Source: Flavobacteriaceae bacterium (GTDB lineage Bacteria; Bacteroidota; Bacteroidia; Flavobacteriales; Flavobacteriaceae). From it: 64,000 bases of DNA. Within the stretch, counting starts at the first letter, position 1. The number at the start of each line of letters is the position of its first letter. Position numbers and translations under genes: made by a program. The stretch lies in contig CP031964.1 of assembly GCA_003443635.1 (NCBI GenBank), forward strand, positions 2,016,321 through 2,080,320, written 5' to 3'. The notes below the pieces were generated by a model. That model saw only the letters and a program-made list of their open reading frames with translations. It was not told where the DNA came from and ran no database searches. Shown here piece by piece: positions 9,947-62,002 of the stretch.

Positions 9947-10444
9947 ATGATACTAAAAAGGATTTATGCATATTTAATTGACTATCTAATTATTCTAATT
10001 TATGCCGGATTACTATTTTTATTAACTCTTTTGATTTATAAACTCATTGGAAAATCTCCAAAACCACAAGGTCCTATTATAGGGAATTTAATAAGTTTTT
10101 TTACTCTTACGTTGCCAGTATTTTTGTATTTCTATTTATATGAAAGTAGTTATAAAAAAGCAACTTTAGGAAAACAGAAACTTAAATTAATTGTACTTAA
10201 CAATTCAAAAAAAAATATTTTAATTCGAGTGGTTTTTAAAATAATACCCTGGGAAATTGCACACTTTGGGATACATTGGTCAGTTTTTTATTCAACTCAA
10301 AATTCAGATATTCCGCTTTGGAATTGGATAGTTTTAATTAGCCCTCAAGTTATTGTTCTAATTTATTTTATTAGTATTATTATTAGTAAGGGAACAGCAA
10401 GTATATATGATAGAATAGCAAAAACAAAAATAGCAACTATTTGA
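9947..10444 (+). CDS. RDD-family membrane protein
   Basis: A 165-residue integral inner-membrane protein. It begins MILKRIYAYLIDYLIILIYAG, the RDD signature in which Arg and two Asp residues sit around the first helix (R5, D12 here). There are four hydrophobic segments (about 10-32, 45-65, 125-150 and a weaker one around 85-100). It also has the conserved middle motif TLGKQKLKLIV and the terminal SIYDRIAKTKI. RDD proteins are loosely linked to transport or Na+/H+ exchange, but the general function is unknown. It follows the AraC gene by 40 bp and probably shares its transcript. Confidence 0.88.
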   Translation: MILKRIYAYLIDYLIILIYAGLLFLLTLLIYKLIGKSPKPQGPIIGNLISFFTLTLPVFLYFYLYESSYKKATLGKQKLKLIVLNNSKKNILIRVVFKIIPWEIAHFGIHWSVFYSTQNSDIPLWNWIVLISPQVIVLIYFISIIISKGTASIYDRIAKTKIATI

Positions 10445-10544
10445 TATTTAATGAGAAAACATATGCCATCTCAATGATTAATACACTATTATCATCATTC
10501 TTTTCAGAATTTTTATATTTGCTACTAGTCATGAAAATCAAAAA

Positions 10545-11099
10545 ATGATGAAAAAAATTATTAAATGGTTTTTAATTATAGTAATCATTTTGGGTATTGG
10601 TTTATTTGGAGCATATAAATACATGATTTCTCAAACAAAAAAGGCAAGCCCAGAAGATACTGTTGTTTATAATCAAGAAGACTTAAATCTTTCTGTTTTT
10701 TATAATCGTCCATCAAAAAAAGGACGTGTTATTTTTGGAGACCTTGTCCCTTATGGAAAAGTTTGGAGAACTGGAGCTAATGAAGCTACTACTTTTGAAA
10801 CTAATAAAGATATTTCGATCAATGGTAAAAAACTTCCTGCTGGCAAATATTCATTATTCACAATTCCAGGAAAAAATAGTTGGGAAATTATCTTCAATAG
10901 TAAAAGTTACTCTTGGGGAGTTAAAGGCAGAAACGAAGCTTCTTTAGAAAGAGAATTTGATGCGCTTGTTACTAATGTTTCAGTAAGTGAGATAAGTGAG
11001 GTTGAAGAGTTATTTACTATTTCTTTTGAGAACACTCCTGATCTTGCTTTGCTATTATCTTGGGATCAAACAAAAATAGTTATACCTATCCAACAATAG
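10545..11099 (+). CDS. DUF2911 secreted/membrane-anchored protein
   Basis: 184 residues with an N-terminal hydrophobic helix (about 6-26) that acts as anchor or signal peptide. The remainder matches DUF2911: SVFYNRPSKKGRVIFGDLV, GKVWRTGANEATTFET, LPAGKYSLFTIPG and a late LLLSWDQTKIVIPI. The family is predicted to be a beta-rich periplasmic domain of unknown function, common in Bacteroidota. A double ATG (10545 and 10548) makes the exact start uncertain by one codon. It lies 100 bp after the RDD gene and converges with the EamA gene after only 23 bp, with no obvious terminator between. Confidence 0.9.
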   Translation: MMKKIIKWFLIIVIILGIGLFGAYKYMISQTKKASPEDTVVYNQEDLNLSVFYNRPSKKGRVIFGDLVPYGKVWRTGANEATTFETNKDISINGKKLPAGKYSLFTIPGKNSWEIIFNSKSYSWGVKGRNEASLEREFDALVTNVSVSEISEVEELFTISFENTPDLALLLSWDQTKIVIPIQQ

Positions 11100-11122
11100 C
11101 AATTTTATAGGGTATTTAAAAC

Positions 11123-12034
11123 TCAACTGTTTTTTCTATAGTTTCTTTTATTATCTTTTCTGCTATTTATAAAATATACTCCTGTTAAAAGTACACAAGC
11201 TGCTATAATAGATTGAAGTGTAATTTGCTCTTCTAAAAAATACCAACCTAATAATAGAGCTATAACTGGATTCACATAAGCAGATGTAGCTACTTTTTCT
11301 GTAGAAACTACTTTTAGTAAATAATTAAAAGAGGTGAAAGCAGCAATACTTCCAAAAAATATTAAGCATATTAGTGAGGTTTGTGTTTCAAAACTCCATA
11401 CCGTAGGCAGCGTCCATGTTTCTTGAAATATTAAACTACCGACTGCTAACATTACCCCTGCTGTGATCATCTGATACCCTGTAGCAATAAAAAAGTTTTT
11501 TGGAATATCTGCTTTAGCAACAAAGAGGCTTCCAAAACTCCAGCATAAGATACAAGTAAAAATCATGATAATCCCTATAGTACTTCCGTCTTGCATTGTT
11601 AACTCTTGCTGGCTTATTAATAAATACATACCTATTACCCCCAATAATATTCCTATAATAGATTTAGGCTTTATTCTTTTTCTTTGAATTGCTCTCATTA
11701 ATATCAATATAATAAGAGGTTGTAAAGATGCTTCTAAAGCAGCAAAACCACTATCTACAAATTGTAAAGCCCAAACTATAACACCATTACCATAACCAAG
11801 GAATAAGAAGCCAGCAAAAAAACAATTAAAAAATTGTTTTTTTGTAATAGCTAAACTTTTCCCCATGGATTTAGCTATTAAAAATATGATAATACCAGCT
11901 GTAGTAAAACGTATGGAAGCTAACATAAATGGAGGTAATTCAGTAACGGCTATTTTATTCCACAGATATGTGGATCCCCAAAATACATAAATAGAGAAAA
12001 AAGCTAGAATAATAAGCATTGTACGCTTTTCCAT
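11123..12034 (-). CDS. EamA/DMT-family drug/metabolite exporter
   Basis: A 303-residue integral membrane protein with about ten transmembrane helices arranged as two EamA repeats. The first repeat opens FSIYVFWGSTYLWNKIA and PPFMLASIRFTTAG, and the second has CWSFGSLFVAK and AYVNPVIALLLGWYFLEE. These are signatures of the RhaT/YdcZ-like DMT superfamily. Members export amino acids, metabolites or drugs by proton antiport; the substrate cannot be read from the sequence. The C-terminal tail is basic (NSRKDNKRNYRKNS), consistent with a cytoplasmic end. It is divergent from the sugar-dehydrogenase gene. Confidence 0.92.
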   Translation of the reverse strand: MEKRTMLIILAFFSIYVFWGSTYLWNKIAVTELPPFMLASIRFTTAGIIIFLIAKSMGKSLAITKKQFFNCFFAGFLFLGYGNGVIVWALQFVDSGFAALEASLQPLIILILMRAIQRKRIKPKSIIGILLGVIGMYLLISQQELTMQDGSTIGIIMIFTCILCWSFGSLFVAKADIPKNFFIATGYQMITAGVMLAVGSLIFQETWTLPTVWSFETQTSLICLIFFGSIAAFTSFNYLLKVVSTEKVATSAYVNPVIALLLGWYFLEEQITLQSIIAACVLLTGVYFINSRKDNKRNYRKNS

Positions 12035-12129
12035 AGTTGAGATACCTTTTTTACAAGCGCGAAAGTACGTTTTTTAATACATTAATTGAGTTAATGTTAT
12101 TGAAACTATATATTAAGTGTTTTAAAGAT

Positions 12130-12137
12130 TAAATTTG
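12130..12137 (+). promoter_or_regulatory. Putative -7 element upstream of sugar dehydrogenase gene
   Basis: TAAATTTG matches the Bacteroidota -7 consensus TAnnTTTG and lies 66 bp before the ATG at 12203. No well-spaced -33 TTG is visible, so this is a weak call. Confidence 0.3.
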
Positions 12138-12202
12138 TTAAACCAATTATATTCAAATAATTATAGATATACATCGTTAAATAAACATACATTAACCTAC
12201 AA

Positions 12203-13369
12203 ATGATGAAATCAATTTTTAAACTATTTTTATTTTTAAGCATCTTATTTTCTTGTAGTGATAGTATTTTAGATAATGAAATTACTCCTATCGCCACAGA
12301 TATAGAAATCATAAATGCATTCCCTAATCTTCAATTTATTCGTCCTTTAGATTTGCAGAGTCCAAATGATGGGACTAATCGAATATTTATTGTTGAGCAA
12401 CGAGGCATTATTAATGTTTTTGAAAATAGCTCTACGGTAACATCCAGTAATATTTTTTTAAACATAGAATCTATTGTTGATGATTCTGAAGATGAAATGG
12501 GGTTATTAGCACTTGCATTCCACCCCAATTATCAAACTAATGGTTATTTTTATGTAAACTATTCTTTATCAAGAACATTATCGGTAGTATCTCGTTTTCA
12601 AGTTTCACCTCCAAACTCTGCTATAGCAGATCCAAATAGTGAATTGAGGTTATTAGAAATACCACAGCCTTTTACTAATCATAATGGTGGTAAACTAGCT
12701 TTTGGACCCGATGGTTTCTTATATATATCTTCTGGTGATGGAGGCTCTGCAGGAGACCCTCAAGGGAATGCTCAAAACAGAACGAATTTGCTTGGCAATA
12801 TACTTAGAATTGATATTGATAATACTGAAAACGGATTAAACTATGCTATTCCAAATAATAACCCATATGTAGGGAGTCCTACTTTTAGAAATGAAATTTT
12901 CGCATACGGATTAAGAAATCCATGGCGAATTAGTTTTGATATACAAACAGGAGTGTTATGGGCAGGTGATGTAGGGCAAGATAATTTTGAAGAAATTGAT
13001 ATTATCGAGAATGGTAACAATTATGGATGGAATATTCTTGAAGGTAATAACTGTTTTCAAATGACTATTTGTGATGCGTCTAACTTAACATCTCCAGTAT
13101 TTCAATACTCCCATGATAATGGTGATGTGTCAATTACTGGAGGTTATGTTTATCGTGGTAATAATATACCGCAATTACAAGGGCGCTATGTATATGGAGA
13201 TTTTGTCTCAGGTAGAATTTGGTCTTTTAGTGCAGAATTAAGTAGTAATCCAGATAATGAACTTATTGAAGATACTGATTTAAATATTGCCTCATTTGGT
13301 ACAGATATGAATAACGAATTATATATCTGTGCTTTTGATGGTGCTATTTATAAATTTGAAGAAAACTGA
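12203..13369 (+). CDS. PQQ-dependent aldose sugar dehydrogenase-like lipoprotein
   Basis: 388 residues. The N-terminus MMKSIFKLFLFLSILFSC is a lipoprotein signal with Cys18 as anchor, followed by acidic SDSILD. The body is a GSDH/Asd beta-propeller: FIVEQRGIINVFE, GLLALAFHPNYQTNGYFYVNYS, NHNGGKLAFGPDGFLYISSGDGG (start of blade with the catalytic-type His), YGLRNPWRISFD, DVGQDNFEEIDII and GGYVYRG. Soluble PQQ aldose dehydrogenases oxidise sugars to lactones in the periplasm, passing electrons from PQQ to quinones or other acceptors. PQQ must be acquired; no PQQ synthesis gene is in the window. Some homologs of this fold have no demonstrated PQQ activity. Confidence 0.88.
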   Translation: MMKSIFKLFLFLSILFSCSDSILDNEITPIATDIEIINAFPNLQFIRPLDLQSPNDGTNRIFIVEQRGIINVFENSSTVTSSNIFLNIESIVDDSEDEMGLLALAFHPNYQTNGYFYVNYSLSRTLSVVSRFQVSPPNSAIADPNSELRLLEIPQPFTNHNGGKLAFGPDGFLYISSGDGGSAGDPQGNAQNRTNLLGNILRIDIDNTENGLNYAIPNNNPYVGSPTFRNEIFAYGLRNPWRISFDIQTGVLWAGDVGQDNFEEIDIIENGNNYGWNILEGNNCFQMTICDASNLTSPVFQYSHDNGDVSITGGYVYRGNNIPQLQGRYVYGDFVSGRIWSFSAELSSNPDNELIEDTDLNIASFGTDMNNELYICAFDGAIYKFEEN

Positions 13370-13406
13370 ATATTATTAAAATTTCATGAGAATTGTTAAC
13401 TGGCAC

Positions 13407-13414
13407 TATTTTTG
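13407..13414 (+). promoter_or_regulatory. Putative -7 element shared by tandem paralogs (copy 1)
   Basis: TATTTTTG matches TAnnTTTG and sits in the context TGGCACTATTTTTG. The second paralog has TGGCATTATTTTTG at the equivalent place, about 40-90 bp before its start. Conservation of the context between the copies supports it as a real promoter core. Confidence 0.45.
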
Positions 13415-13505
13415 ACGACTATTAAATAATATTTTAAGATATTTTTATATATCTAATTAATCTTAATAAAACTTATTATCACTAACTTTATAAAAAAATA
13501 AAAAA

Positions 13506-14165
13506 ATGAAAAAAGCAATTACATTATTAGCCATCTTTTGTATTAGTTTTGGGTTTTCGCAGCGCCCTATATTTGTTGACTTATCAGCTCAAGCTGAACC
13601 ATTATTCTCTAATAAATTATATCATCCTCCCGTAGCTGCAATTGGTACACCTTATGTAAATGAAGAATTTTCTTTTGCAAAAATAAATAATTCTAAAGAG
13701 CTTTATTTAGTACGTTATAATGCTCATCAAGATGTTATGGAAGTTAAAAAAGGTGAAAATACAGAAATAATAGTATTAGATAATGAGAAGAATTATGTTA
13801 TTTCTATGAATGGAAAAGAATACATAACAACAGCTTTTGATAATGGGGAAAGAGGTATAGCTCATATTGTTTGGGAAGATACTGATCATGCACTGTTTCA
13901 AAAAGAAAATGTAAAATTTTCTCCAGCTACTAAAGCTAAAACTAGTTATGAAGCGTCTACAAAAGCTAAATATTCTGAAATAACTAACTCATATTATGTA
14001 GATTTTGGTAATGGTTCTTTAGTTCAGGTTCCTAAAAAGAAAAAGAAATTTTATGCTCTATTTTCAGATAATACAAAAAATGTACAACAGTTTGTAAAAA
14101 AAGAGAAATTGAAAATTGATAATAAAGAAGATTTAATTAAGATTCTAAATTTTTATTTCTCTTAA
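13506..14165 (+). CDS. Secreted protein of unknown function, tandem paralog 1
   Basis: I do not recognise the family. It has 219 residues with a signal peptide MKKAITLLAIFCISFGFSQ. The mature protein is clearly homologous to the next gene: IGTPYVNEEFSFAKINNSKE, YLVRYNAHQDVMEVK, HALFQKENVKF, ATKAKTSYE and the C-terminal KEKLKIDNKEDLIKI are shared. The predicted fold is mostly beta strands with a final helix. No Cys and no catalytic motif are visible. A related layout (strands, KKFYALF-like block, helical tail) is common in small secreted flavobacterial proteins of unknown role. It has its own promoter-like element and terminator, so the copies are separately transcribed. Confidence 0.8.
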   Translation: MKKAITLLAIFCISFGFSQRPIFVDLSAQAEPLFSNKLYHPPVAAIGTPYVNEEFSFAKINNSKELYLVRYNAHQDVMEVKKGENTEIIVLDNEKNYVISMNGKEYITTAFDNGERGIAHIVWEDTDHALFQKENVKFSPATKAKTSYEASTKAKYSEITNSYYVDFGNGSLVQVPKKKKKFYALFSDNTKNVQQFVKKEKLKIDNKEDLIKILNFYFS

Positions 14166-14195
14166 ACGAATCTTAAGTAATAAATAATAATAAAG

Positions 14196-14222
14196 ACCTA
14201 CTCTAATCAGTAGGTTTTTTTT
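14196..14222 (+). terminator. Rho-independent terminator
   Basis: Arms ACCTACT (14196-14202) and AGTAGGT (14209-14215) with a 6-nt loop, followed by a T-run, about 30 bp after the stop of paralog 1. Confidence 0.85.
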
Positions 14223-14336
14223 ATGCTATCATTCTTCTTTTTGATCAAGGTTATAGAATAAAGTATAATTATGAAAGTTTGATTTGTAATAAGTTTATTA
14301 CATCATAAAGAAATAAAGCATTACTTTAATTGGCAT

Positions 14337-14344
14337 TATTTTTG
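14337..14344 (+). promoter_or_regulatory. Putative -7 element shared by tandem paralogs (copy 2)
   Basis: TATTTTTG in the context TGGCATTATTTTTG, 38 bp before the ATG at 14383. It nearly repeats the element before paralog 1. Confidence 0.45.
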
Positions 14345-14382
14345 TCATGTTGCTTGTATCTTATAACTAAATAATTTATAAA

Positions 14383-15039
14383 ATGAAAAAAACAATTATA
14401 GTATTAGTCGTTTTTAGTATTACTTTTGGGTTCTCTCAAAATAATGCTGATCAATTTGGTATTAATTCAGGAATTTTTCCACCAAATAAATCGTATGATC
14501 TTCCAGAGGAAGCAATTGGCACACCATATGTAGATAATGAATTCTCCTTTGCAAAAATAAATAAATCTAAAGAGTTTTATTTAGTACGTTATAATGCTTA
14601 TCAAGATGTTATGGAAGTTAAGAAAAATGAGAAGACAAAAATTATAACATTAGATAATAATAAAGATTATGTTATTTCATTAAATGATAAAGAATATATA
14701 ACTAGAACTTTTGCTTCTGGCGAAAGAGGTATTGTACATATTATTTGGGATGACATAGATCATGCACTGTTTCAAAAAGAAAATGTAAAACTCACTCCAG
14801 CGACTAAAGCTAAAACTAGTTATCATACATCTATAAAAGCCAAATACTCTGAAATAAGCAATGAATACTATATGGATTTTGGTAATAAATCTTTAATAAA
14901 AGTTCCTAAAAATAAAAAGAAATTTTATGCTCTATTTTCAAATAGTGCAAAAAATGTACAACAGTTTGTGAAAAAAGAAAAATTAAAAATTGATAATAAA
15001 GAAGATTTAATTAAGATAGTAAAATACTATTTTTCTTAA
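14383..15039 (+). CDS. Secreted protein of unknown function, tandem paralog 2
   Basis: 218 residues with signal peptide MKKTIIVLVVFSITFGFSQ, and homologous along its whole length to the gene at 13506. The most conserved stretches are EFSFAKINKSKEFYLVRYNA, QDVMEVKK, the central GERGIVHI-W region and the C-terminal QFVKKEKLKIDNKEDLIKI. The variable parts are the first 25 mature residues and some surface-type loops. Function is unknown. The two copies arose by a gene duplication that included the promoter region. It is flanked by terminators and so forms its own transcription unit. Confidence 0.8.
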   Translation: MKKTIIVLVVFSITFGFSQNNADQFGINSGIFPPNKSYDLPEEAIGTPYVDNEFSFAKINKSKEFYLVRYNAYQDVMEVKKNEKTKIITLDNNKDYVISLNDKEYITRTFASGERGIVHIIWDDIDHALFQKENVKLTPATKAKTSYHTSIKAKYSEISNEYYMDFGNKSLIKVPKNKKKFYALFSNSAKNVQQFVKKEKLKIDNKEDLIKIVKYYFS

Positions 15040-15066
15040 AAGAGAAATAATTTTAAATTAGAATAC

Positions 15067-15099
15067 AAAAAAGATCTGCTATAGAGCAGATCTTTTTTT
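15067..15099. terminator. Bidirectional terminator
   Basis: A long stem AAAAAAGATCTGCT / AGCAGATCTTTTTT with loop ATAG. It has A-tract and T-tract flanks, so it can serve the plus-strand paralog 2 and the convergent DUF4251 gene. Confidence 0.88.
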
Positions 15100-15124
15100 G
15101 TGTCATTTTATTTTAATATTATTA

Positions 15125-15712
15125 TTAATTAGAAGCTATCTTTTTTTCAATTTCTTTTAAAGCTACTACTCTTCCTTGATACCGAATACTCTCGCGATTA
15201 CTACTGTTAACGGTAAGATAAGTATTCCCTTTTGCATTTATAATTAAATGTATTTGCAAACTTTCCTGAGATTTATTAGTTATAAATTTAACATCTATTC
15301 TACGCTTAGAATCTTTATATGTAATTTTTAAATCTTCAATATTGTTTTTAAATTCAAAACCGTTATCATCTCTATTGTTATAGCTCGTAACTCTATAGAC
15401 TTGACCAAAATATGGTAAAGATATATTAGCAAACTCATAATTCAGTTTAATATAATTTGTATTACCTATTAAATTAATCCTATTTCCTTGAAAGATATTA
15501 TTACCTCCACTAAAATTTATTTTAGTTATATCATTACCTAAAGGAAATGCCCAAGATGCTTCAAATTGAAATTTGCCAGATTCAATTAATTCTTTCATTT
15601 CGTTATATGCAGCTATACTTACTTCTTTTTTTAAAGCTCTTTTTTCAGATTTAGATTGTGCAGTAATTATTCCAAATCCAAATAATATCATTAATAATAA
15701 AATCTTTTTCAT
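15125..15712 (-). CDS. DUF4251 secreted protein
   Basis: 195 residues with signal peptide MKKILLLMILFGFGIITAQ. It matches the DUF4251 pattern: a basic lead (SKSEKRALKKE), a helix ending LIESGKFQFEASWAFPLGN, then INFSGGNNIFQGNRINLIGN, a YFGQVYRVTSYN strand pair and IDVKFITN. DUF4251 proteins are small periplasmic or outer-membrane-associated beta proteins found throughout Bacteroidota. Their function is unknown. It is monocistronic and convergent with paralog 2. Confidence 0.8.
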   Translation of the reverse strand: MKKILLLMILFGFGIITAQSKSEKRALKKEVSIAAYNEMKELIESGKFQFEASWAFPLGNDITKINFSGGNNIFQGNRINLIGNTNYIKLNYEFANISLPYFGQVYRVTSYNNRDDNGFEFKNNIEDLKITYKDSKRRIDVKFITNKSQESLQIHLIINAKGNTYLTVNSSNRESIRYQGRVVALKEIEKKIASN

Positions 15713-15780
15713 ATCTAATTGTTTAATAATCAGTATAAATATAGCAAATATTATACCATATTCAGTGCTTTAAATAAAGT

Positions 15781-16542
15781 TTAACGTATATGACTTCCAG
15801 CATTTACATCTATAGTAGCACCAGTTGCATGATCCATTAATCCACTACACATTAACCCAATAAGTGGTGCTAAATCTTTTGGTTTTGTTAATTCATTTAG
15901 AGCAATTTCATTAAGAACACGTTCTTCACCATACTCAGCAATAAACTGTTCAGCCATTTGTGTACGAGTAAACCCTGGAGATACTACAAAAGATTTTATA
16001 TTATCTTTTCCAAAAGAACGCGCCACACTTCTTGCCAGTGAGGTAACACCTCCTTTAGAAGCTGCATATGCAAGATATTCTTCAGTTTCTCCTCTAAACA
16101 CAGCACGGCTGCCTATATAAACAAACCTTCCTTGTTTATGTTTTTTATAATGATCTATCCCTAATTTAGTTAATAATCCGACAGAATTTAAATTAATATC
16201 TAATGTTTTTCTCCAAACAGACATCCAATCATTAGTGTTAATTTTTGTTGAATGCTCTATAAAAACTCCTGCATTTAAAATAATGGTATCTATGGTTTCA
16301 AAAATATTTTCTACTTCTTCAAAAAGACGAAATACATCTGCCTCATTTGCTAAATTAGCTTGAAATATTTGAGATTCATTTCGATATTTATTAGCTAGTT
16401 CTTCTGCTGAACTTCTATTACTGTTATAATGAATGGCAACTTGAGCTCCGTTTTGCATTAAAAAATCGGCAACGCCTTTTCCTATACCATCAGAAGCTCC
16501 AGTAACTAATATTTTTTGGCCTGTTAAATCAATTTTAGTCAT
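15781..16542 (-). CDS. SDR-family NAD(P)-dependent oxidoreductase (canonical active site)
   Basis: 253 residues, the normal length for a classical short-chain dehydrogenase. The nucleotide-binding TGASDGIG is at 14-21, NAG in the middle, an active-site Ser in IGSRAVF, and YAASKGG supplies Tyr and Lys of the catalytic tetrad. The C-terminus has the PGFTRTQM segment. It is FabG-like but probably acts on a small carbonyl compound or sugar derivative, not an acyl carrier protein. It is the last gene of a tight operon: cupin, SDR, SDR, with gaps of 5 and 3 bp. Confidence 0.92.
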   Translation of the reverse strand: MTKIDLTGQKILVTGASDGIGKGVADFLMQNGAQVAIHYNSNRSSAEELANKYRNESQIFQANLANEADVFRLFEEVENIFETIDTIILNAGVFIEHSTKINTNDWMSVWRKTLDINLNSVGLLTKLGIDHYKKHKQGRFVYIGSRAVFRGETEEYLAYAASKGGVTSLARSVARSFGKDNIKSFVVSPGFTRTQMAEQFIAEYGEERVLNEIALNELTKPKDLAPLIGLMCSGLMDHATGATIDVNAGSHIR

Positions 16543-56181: not shown

Positions 56182-56799
56182 ATGAAACGAACAGTTAAAT
56201 TATCAGCAATTCTTATAGTACTATGTTTAAGCACACATCTATCTTTTGCACAAAGCAAAAGCATTGAGAAAACAATTACATTGAATGGAAAATCTAAAAC
56301 AGAGGCCATTAATATCAATGTAAATAAGAATATAAAATCTCTAGTATCTTTTGCGCAAAGCAAAAGCATTGAGAAAACAATTACATTAGATGGAAAATCT
56401 AAAACAGAGGCCATTAATATCAATGTAAATAAGAATATGAAATCCCTAGATTTAAACATTAAATGTGAAATTGATAAAGGTTTTATAATTATAGAAATAT
56501 TAAGCCCTGAAAAAAAAGAAAAAGGTAAGTTATTGATTTTAAATAAAATAAATGATAAGTTAAGTATTTATAGTCCAATAACTCATGAAGGCAAAAAACA
56601 ATTTGAAGATAAATTCAAATATTTTTTAACTATAAAAGATACTACACTCTATAAAGGTTATACTCCAATAGATAATTTTAATTCTACTAATGGCGAGATT
56701 AATAAAAAATTTAGTTTGCCAACTGAAGGTGAATGGCAAATAAAAGTAAAGTCAGAAAAAGGTAAAGGGAAAATTTCGATTAAAAGTAAAACCAACTAA
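56182..56799 (+). CDS. Secreted protein with internal 35-residue tandem duplication
   Basis: 205 residues. Signal peptide MKRTVKLSAILIVLCLSTHL then SFAQ. Right after it comes a 35-residue unit, SFAQSKSIEKTITLNGKSKT and the following EAININVNKNIKSLV, which is repeated once with only two substitutions. The second copy thus includes another SFAQ, a signal-peptidase-like site, inside the mature part. The remaining 120 residues look like a beta-sandwich (GEWQIKVKSEKGKGKISIKS end). I do not recognise the family. The next gene, a membrane LuxR-type regulator, starts 15 bp later, so the two are an operon. Confidence 0.8.
   Translation: MKRTVKLSAILIVLCLSTHLSFAQSKSIEKTITLNGKSKTEAININVNKNIKSLVSFAQSKSIEKTITLDGKSKTEAININVNKNMKSLDLNIKCEIDKGFIIIEILSPEKKEKGKLLILNKINDKLSIYSPITHEGKKQFEDKFKYFLTIKDTTLYKGYTPIDNFNSTNGEINKKFSLPTEGEWQIKVKSEKGKGKISIKSKTN
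56242..56451 (+). repeat. 105-bp tandem duplication inside a secreted-protein gene
   Basis: Unit 1 is 56242-56346 and unit 2 is 56347-56451. They are in frame and differ at only about four bases, so the duplication is recent. Confidence 0.92.
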
Positions 56800-61544: not shown

Positions 61545-61739
61545 TCAACCATTTGTATCTGGAATGCAAACGCTACCCCCACATCTACCTGTTGGACAAT
61601 GCGGCAAACCTGTAAAGCAAGCAAAACCTTCTGTTCCCGAACCACAATGTTCTATATATTCTATAAGAGTAAAGCCTCCATTAATAGATTTCTGTTCTGT
61701 TTTGTTTAGGGCAGCGCCTAATTTTAATAAATTTTTCAT
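61545..61739 (-). CDS. Double-glycine-leader, Cys-rich peptide (bacteriocin-like precursor)
   Basis: 64 residues. The leader MKNLLKLGAALNKTEQKSIN ends in GG (21-22), matching the leader common in Bacteroidota for peptides exported by C39-peptidase ABC transporters. Cleavage after Gly22 would release a core of 42 residues with five Cys (32, 41, 48, 53, 58), much Gly and Thr, and no Lys. The core could fold by disulfides or be modified, but no lanthipeptide synthetase, radical-SAM enzyme or C39 transporter is in the window. Activity (bacteriocin or signal) is unproven. It has its own terminator at 61394. Confidence 0.8.
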   Translation of the reverse strand: MKNLLKLGAALNKTEQKSINGGFTLIEYIEHCGSGTEGFACFTGLPHCPTGRCGGSVCIPDTNG

Positions 61740-62002
61740 AATAAAAAGTTTTAATAATTATTTTAAAACCGTGAACATTTAATGGCATTCACAGCATATG
61801 CCAATTCTTCGCGAATGAGAATTAATAATACATCCAAAGTAAGAAAAATATTAAAATACAGCACTATTATTCTTATACTTTTAACAAATACATTTTAAAA
61901 CAATAAATTTATTTTATCTCATAATATGGCTATAAATGCTCTAACAGTTTATCAATTCTGTTTAAAATAAACTTAGTATATTAGATTAATTAAACCTTAA
62001 AA

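Follow-up and report, generated by a model that had tools for sequence, protein, structure and literature searches.

The 64-kb stretch of flavobacterial chromosome analyzed here (64,000 nt; hereafter the window), part of a one-contig genome of 3.35 Mb, carries on its minus strand a small gene that probably encodes a secreted, disulfide-stabilized, bacteriocin-like peptide, probably one of some 20 that lie dispersed over the genome. The best explanation, in which we have good though not full confidence, is that this set constitutes a dispersed regulon of exported, disulfide-rich, bacteriocin-like peptides marked by a structured RNA. The initial annotation of this locus had described an orphan double-glycine-leader peptide; that interpretation finds partial support and is best broadened, with a dispersed, RNA-marked export regulon taking the place of a single orphan.

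The precursor gene occupies positions 61545–61739 (minus strand, as are all features of this locus; stop codon included) and encodes 64 amino acids: a double-glycine leader of 22 residues, MKNLLKLGAALNKTEQKSINGG (61674–61739), with a predicted cut after GG, and a core of 42 residues, FTLIEYIEHCGSGTEGFACFTGLPHCPTGRCGGSVCIPDTNG (61548–61673), with cysteines at positions 32, 41, 48, 53, and 58 and no lysine. The reading frame, the leader, and the five-cysteine, lysine-free core are as first reported, with the strand now assigned as minus. Scans of the peptide against Pfam, PHROGs, and PADLOC gave no match, nor did a phage search at E 1, and every match in a PDB profile search with the four-sequence family had E > 1. 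The NCBIfam model leader_Chryseo (NF047798) scored 11 bits on the window peptide, below its cut-off of 23.5. The one match from a plasmid search (E 0.9) was judged to be chance, and a structure prediction (mean pLDDT 59.3) was too poor for use. Elsewhere in the window, at 56182–56799, an ORF of 205 residues harbors a nearly exact internal repeat some 34 residues long.

The window core recurs in four other genomes (L001, L073, L074, and L075), and alignment of the homologous cores shows the five cysteines kept in all five genomes. The L001 homolog comes from the MAG of an uncultured Dokdonia and shares 65% identity with the window precursor over residues 1–63; this is a homologous leader–core pair of the kind whose absence from related genomes the initial annotation had regarded as telling against its reading. 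In the other three, genomes of another genus (G319, G586, and G822), the core stands behind a clearly different leader, the G319 core being 66% identical to that of the window. The neighborhoods vary: a mogA-like gene, named by eye, lies upstream of the core homolog in the three G319-type genomes, and ECF sigma and CHAT genes are found near the homolog in L001. A more distant five-cysteine peptide occurs in Dokdonia pacifica (L002), with a similar one in the G319 island. A core profile matched 5 of 395 genomes across the order and 2 of 116 in the G319 genus; two of the five order-wide matches (G653 and G133; loci L051 and L052) are unrelated frames matched by chance. Core dN/dS (Nei–Gojobori) is 0.20–0.33 between the window gene and its four homologs, and 0.08–0.11 between L073 and its two close relatives, rough values given about 29 synonymous sites. 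Judged by these ratios, purifying selection acts on the window core. On comparative evidence of this kind, the ORF is a real protein-coding gene. Its product is probably exported by the cell.

The gene is an orphan only locally. With the window precursor as query, a protein search of its own genome (E ≤ 10) returned 16 further places, mostly by way of the leader, or 17 with itself. A leader profile (A3) was assembled from 17 leaders, largely those just described, drawn from this genome and three further ones; it found 20 places, where 18 of the leaders end in GG, one in GD (L026), and one in GS (L029). Other such leaders, which the initial annotation had thought worth seeking, are thus present in number; judged by leader similarity, the genome has 20 genes of this kind, that of the window among them, and the designation "orphan" does not hold genome-wide. 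Peptide genes outside the export islands described below, including that of the window, lie elsewhere on the chromosome, singly or in small groups.

Just upstream of the gene, immediately beyond the interval covered by the initial annotation, which missed it, is an RNA-like structured element (61765–61822), placed by a covariance model and by covariation. An AT-rich linker of 25 nt (61740–61764), bounded by the end of the element in the covariance model, separates it from the ATG. The common motif was first spotted by reading upstream of the peptides of this genome. In the fold that we propose, hairpin P1 (61804–61822; arms 61822–61818 and 61808–61804, assigned by eye from the sequence and the covariation columns) is followed by stem P2 (61783–61803; arms 61803–61798 and 61788–61783, TGGCAT/ATGCCA; covariation helix 3). 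The loop of P2 holds the 5′ arm of a further stem, P3 (61769–61794; arms 61794–61789 and 61774–61769, CTGTGA/TCACGG, with one G–U pair; covariation helix 4), and the 3′ arm of P3 lies downstream, so that P2 and P3 form an H-type pseudoknot.

Covariation was assessed in two alignments. The first (A4) contains 62 copies aligned by sequence, of which this genome contributed 16 and other genomes the remainder; a loose P2 pattern had yielded 73 distinct segments, of which 10 without the element were removed by eye, 62 being left after re-cutting. Here 88.9% of cells are paired, versus 79.5% when shuffled, both partners have changed in 15 of 18 pairs, and covariation scores 0.334, versus 0.179 when shuffled (0/500) and at most 0.130 in slid controls. 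All six pairs of P3 have changed on both sides, with 91.6% of cells paired, as have all five pairs of covariation helix 2 in P1, the weakest stem (78.7%). The corresponding 98.1% for P2 is biased, four P2 pairs having served to select the sequences; P1 and P3 are unbiased in this respect. For the second alignment, 18 loci were chosen and their 40 matches aligned by a model pairing only P1 and P2. In it, P3 is paired in 93.2% of cells, versus 78.3% when shuffled, with a score of 0.414 versus 0.191 (0/500). Twenty of its 40 rows are also in A4; in the 20 rows outside A4, P3 has six pairs in 13, five in four, and four in one, and its 5′ arm is absent in two. The stems themselves differ widely, including CTGTGA/TCACAG, CCTTGA/TCAAGG, CTGTAC/GTACAG, and TGGTGA/TCACCA.

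Energy folding of the single window copy, with a program that does not model pseudoknots, gave nested hairpins only (z −1.14; 28 of 200 shuffles as good), a modeling result that speaks neither for nor against the pseudoknot. An over-loose stem finder, positive in 94 of 106 cases with many false, was discarded. No Rfam 15 family reached its gathering score on the window element, on eight loci of this genome, or on four further loci with the element. Rfam scanning of stretches from this genome separately recovered a tmRNA gene (L030:4953–5346) and a SAM-I/IV riboswitch (L026:17248–17353). No description of the element was found in the literature surveyed. Ahead of the window copy, TACTTTG (61835–61841) is a tentative −7 box that falls one base short of TAnnTTTG, the Bacteroidota consensus given in the available text of PMC9723704. 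The likeness is only suggestive: the pattern was found in 6 of 25 stretches upstream of the element, in some at unlikely distances, and a general −7 box was not confirmed.

A covariance model of the element (R1), trained on 62 copies that include the window's, singles out this gene within the window, with 66.8 bits (E 7.5e-13) as the only strong hit; the next-best match scores 13.5 bits (E 0.95). In the whole genome it gives 21 hits at E ≤ 1; 16 of these had served for training, and a further two have the same sequence as a trained copy. Of the 21 hits, 19 precede leader-profile genes, one precedes a BlaR1-like gene, and the remaining hit is weak, with nothing convincing downstream. The element is accordingly found upstream of 19 of the 20 leader genes, the one without it sitting 70 nt behind another peptide gene. 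The copy before the BlaR1-like gene (L116:1501–1558; G000:C1:3270451–3270508), a gene named by eye and not a peptide gene, has a complete P3 (ACTTGA/TCAAGT). In 42 fetched loci, mostly islands, the model recorded 78 hits: 68 before leader-profile peptides, eight before variant or decayed GG peptides, and two before machinery genes. The copies before an ABC gene and a fusion gene (L003, L092) both lack the 5′ arm of P3. A GG-type ORF starts 17–27 nt after the element in 73 of 91 readings. Two of the 73 (L119, L122) duplicate places that L092 had supplied, and among the remaining 18 readings, six (L120, L121, L128–L131) were taken on the wrong strand and then read again.

Among 106 leader peptides, 38 are without the element: 19 lie within 70 nt behind another ORF, and others have another leader type or are the core homologs in L001 and L073–L075. 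That these core homologs lack it ties the element to the regulon of this genome and not to the window core. Under strict filters, a phylum-wide draw gave matches at E 1e-4 in 4 of 282 genomes, and three of the four had contributed copies for training. Untrained hits number seven in G319 and one in G1039, a member of another family, and all eight stand 22–25 nt before GG-leader ORFs, some with quite different leaders. The three GG peptides neighboring the G1039 hit have different upstream sequence.

Other arrangements were seen in the same survey. In one G319 island (L076:7304–16474), Cys-rich GG peptides number over a dozen, and some only are preceded by the element. Locus L134 (3082–9063), from another family, encodes four Cys-rich GG-leader peptides of another leader type, three of them behind different upstream sequence with the inverted repeat GATCGG/CCGATC. 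In L001, L002, and L004, just upstream of base 9998, genes with MLKN-type leaders share another motif that includes TACGGTTTT or TATGGTTTT and in some cases takes the form of a hairpin; it is possibly a second regulatory element.

Candidate export machinery lies at a distance from the window. A Peptidase C39 search of the genome gave six matches: C39-ABC genes in three places (near 0.75, 1.77, and 3.14 Mb) and three partner genes that match C39 weakly. None of these six matches is inside the window, so that the earlier statement that no transporter is encoded there holds for C39 transporters, and the nearest C39-ABC gene is about 0.3 Mb from the window gene. Export in trans, one of the two options originally offered, is the one to which these far-off genes point: a distant C39 exporter would carry the window peptide. 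The three islands (L024, L027, and L031) share a trio of genes, whose domains were assigned by scanning the first of them: one encodes a protein of 538 residues that fuses a C39-like segment to VKOR and thioredoxin, another a C39-ABC exporter of 730 residues, and the third an HlyD adaptor of 430 residues. Various Cys-rich GG peptides sit between and behind these machinery genes. The literature surveyed gave no description of such a fusion together with GG peptides.

The islands near 0.75 and 1.77 Mb differ at 3 of 1617 bases in the fusion gene, 5 of 2193 in the ABC gene, and 50 of 1293 in the HlyD gene; the third island diverges more. The differences are patchy, with all five in the ABC gene confined to its last 31 bases, and in two slots the element and the start of the leader are almost identical between the two islands before giving way to unrelated cores. 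Such patchy differences in near-identical islands suggest gene conversion, while the cargo cores differ. In two genomes (L027, 2227–4837, and L009, 1805–4376), the fusion gene has upstream of it genes for a TPR-histidine kinase and a LytTR response regulator, as in peptide-sensing circuits. ECF sigma and CHAT-TPR genes adjoin one island of this genome (L031, 2553–7436) and the L001 homolog of the window peptide (10386–16114).

Leader and fusion tend to occur together. Among 397 genomes of the family, the leader (E 1e-4) was matched in 39 and the fusion (E 1e-20) in 55, with both in 36 versus 5.4 expected, a comparison in which related genomes are not independent. From 26 island loci, 22 fusions and 21 ABC genes were collected by pattern, and the near-identical L027 copy was excluded. 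In the 21 fusions compared, the four VKOR cysteines, the thioredoxin CxxC, and one more cysteine are invariant, as are C16, H89, and D105 in 20 ABC C39 domains. The C39-like part of the fusion matches Pfam weakly (26 bits, cut-off 22) and from profile position 27 only, that is, without the stretch that holds the catalytic cysteine of the ABC proteins; it also aligns weakly to the ABC C39 domains (E 0.0008 at best, mostly non-significant). A structure prediction for the fusion, made with two sequences only, was too poor for use (mean pLDDT 45.3). We infer that the C39-like segment would dock the leader at the oxidoreductase, and that the C39-ABC protein would cut and export the peptide. The make-up of the islands points to a single machine, shared by many unlinked cargo genes, in which docking of the leader would be coupled to cleavage, export, and disulfide formation.

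Under the regulon explanation, transcription would probably begin a little ahead of the element, whose hairpin and H-type pseudoknot would form in the 5′ UTR, with the 3′ edge of the latter some 24–25 nt from the start codon. The footprint of an initiating ribosome has its rear edge near that position. Flavobacterial mRNAs are described as being without Shine–Dalgarno sequences (available text of PMC9723704). Taken together, these two points favor control of translation initiation or of mRNA stability; the element would mark the regulon, most likely exerting such control as a response to some signal or protein, and may control the approximately 20 scattered peptide genes together. The GG leader of the precursor would be recognized in trans by one of the three C39-ABC/HlyD exporters, cut after GG, and exported, while the C39-like/VKOR/thioredoxin fusion of the islands would oxidize pairs of cysteines as the core emerges. 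The exported peptide could have antibacterial or signaling activity.

The main rival gives the element a role at the DNA level: it would be an operator, for example for a LytTR response regulator, or else a site of recombination for cassette exchange. In favor of this are the two slots in which the element and leader start are shared and the cores are completely different, the LytTR and histidine kinase genes near the fusion in L027 and L009, and a TCGCGA-centered palindrome that is well conserved in most copies. A protein-binding site, however, would be expected to keep its letters, whereas the letters of the stems vary with their pairing kept, in arms that interleave as in a pseudoknot. This argues against a DNA role, as does the placement of the element, upstream of the gene, on the gene strand, and 17–27 nt before the ATG in the 73 of 91 readings noted above, and we consider such a role distinctly unlikely. 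The same regulatory genes bear on the function of the peptide, which might be a pheromone, exported by C39 proteins and sensed by the kinase and LytTR pair near the islands. The ComABCDE-type circuits of streptococci provide a model for this arrangement, and the window core, unlike the variable cores of the island slots, is conserved between genera. Yet the pair accompanies the fusion in L009 and, in the stretches fetched, in just one of the three islands of this genome; the kinase has TPR and His_kinase domains, and peptide sensing by it would be putative; moreover, a 42-residue core with five cysteines is large for a pheromone. A pheromone role seems unlikely.

Double-glycine leaders are common in lanthipeptides, and the odd number of cysteines, along with threonine and serine in the core, would be compatible with a thioether-bearing or radical-SAM-modified RiPP. 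But no LanC-like protein was found in the genome, in a search whose control was positive in 1 of 14 genomes, which favors disulfides over thioethers, and the islands encode a VKOR/thioredoxin fusion instead. Mostly even cysteine counts fit disulfides as well: the count is even in 86 and odd in 20 of the 106 cores of distinct leader-bearing ORFs in the 42 loci, with related ORFs counted separately and leaders cut from cores by a script whose cut is doubtful in variant leaders (in L029, 7311–7496, a cut after GS would give five cysteines, not four). With the LanC search, the islands, and the cysteine counts taken together, we consider a modified RiPP highly improbable. The odd count had originally been read as leaving a free thiol or allowing a thioether, dimer, or other modification; the thioether has lost ground on these three lines of evidence, and five cysteines would leave one thiol over, free or in a dimer. 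Finally, the solitary position of the window gene, among neighbors unlike those of its homologs, might suggest a spurious ORF or a decayed remnant, but the purifying selection on its core and the intact state of both its leader and its upstream element make this scarcely credible.

The reading that we prefer, of a dispersed and RNA-marked regulon, has a wider form to which we give an evenly balanced chance: that the element represents a new class of compact H-type pseudoknot RNA outside Rfam 15, a shared ligand- or protein-responsive switch at a near-fixed distance from the start codons of many scattered genes for exported peptides, and that flavobacteria thereby deploy a variable arsenal of peptides as a single regulon defined by this RNA, for which shared exporters and the fused disulfide-forming enzyme provide the machinery. 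The element is, in any case, a handle on exported-peptide genes that protein searches miss, having led to variant-leader, decayed, and solo genes and to one gene in another family. If it does sense something, its ligand or protein would show when flavobacteria deploy peptide weapons or signals.

The nearest described system that we found is that of bacteroidetocins A and B (class IIf; Coyne et al., 2019), and by analogy with it, killing by the window peptide would be putative. According to the available text of that report (PMC6671954), bacteroidetocins have four cysteines, leaders of 15 residues, and a four-gene locus, and their disulfides are likewise inferred. Like the window peptide, they are Bacteroidota peptides with a GG leader and a 42-residue core, and their locus encodes both a thiol oxidoreductase and an ABC exporter that includes a double-glycine peptidase (PMC6671954). 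Such components are also encoded in the islands of this genome. The sets nonetheless differ by description: the window peptide has a 22-residue leader and five cysteines, and lies far from its presumed exporters. Whereas a bacteroidetocin locus brings together the peptide, a transmembrane protein, the oxidoreductase, and the exporter, the window gene stands alone; the oxidoreductase of this genome is fused to C39-like and VKOR segments, and an RNA-like element marks the genes. A weaker likeness links the last 12 residues of the window leader to leader_Chryseo (a bacteriocin-like protein), which also matched three of six other peptides, all below cut-off. In broader terms, a leader ending in GG before a short core, in a genome with C39-ABC proteins whose catalytic residues are intact, is characteristic of GG peptides exported by C39 proteins, with cleavage and export here predicted; LanC-type lanthipeptides would be accompanied by a LanC-like protein, for which the genome search was negative.

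The element, for its part, behaves as structured RNAs do: its stems, including those of the pseudoknot, covary beyond shuffled and slid controls, and its transcription and regulatory role are predicted. The preQ1-I and SAM-II riboswitches are compact cis-regulatory RNAs built on an H-type pseudoknot. SAM-V has also been described as an H-type pseudoknot with a cis-regulatory role. The element resembles all three as a compact H-type pseudoknot in a putative 5′ leader near the start codon; unlike them, it is without a match in Rfam 15 in the loci scanned and precedes genes for exported peptides rather than for metabolic enzymes.
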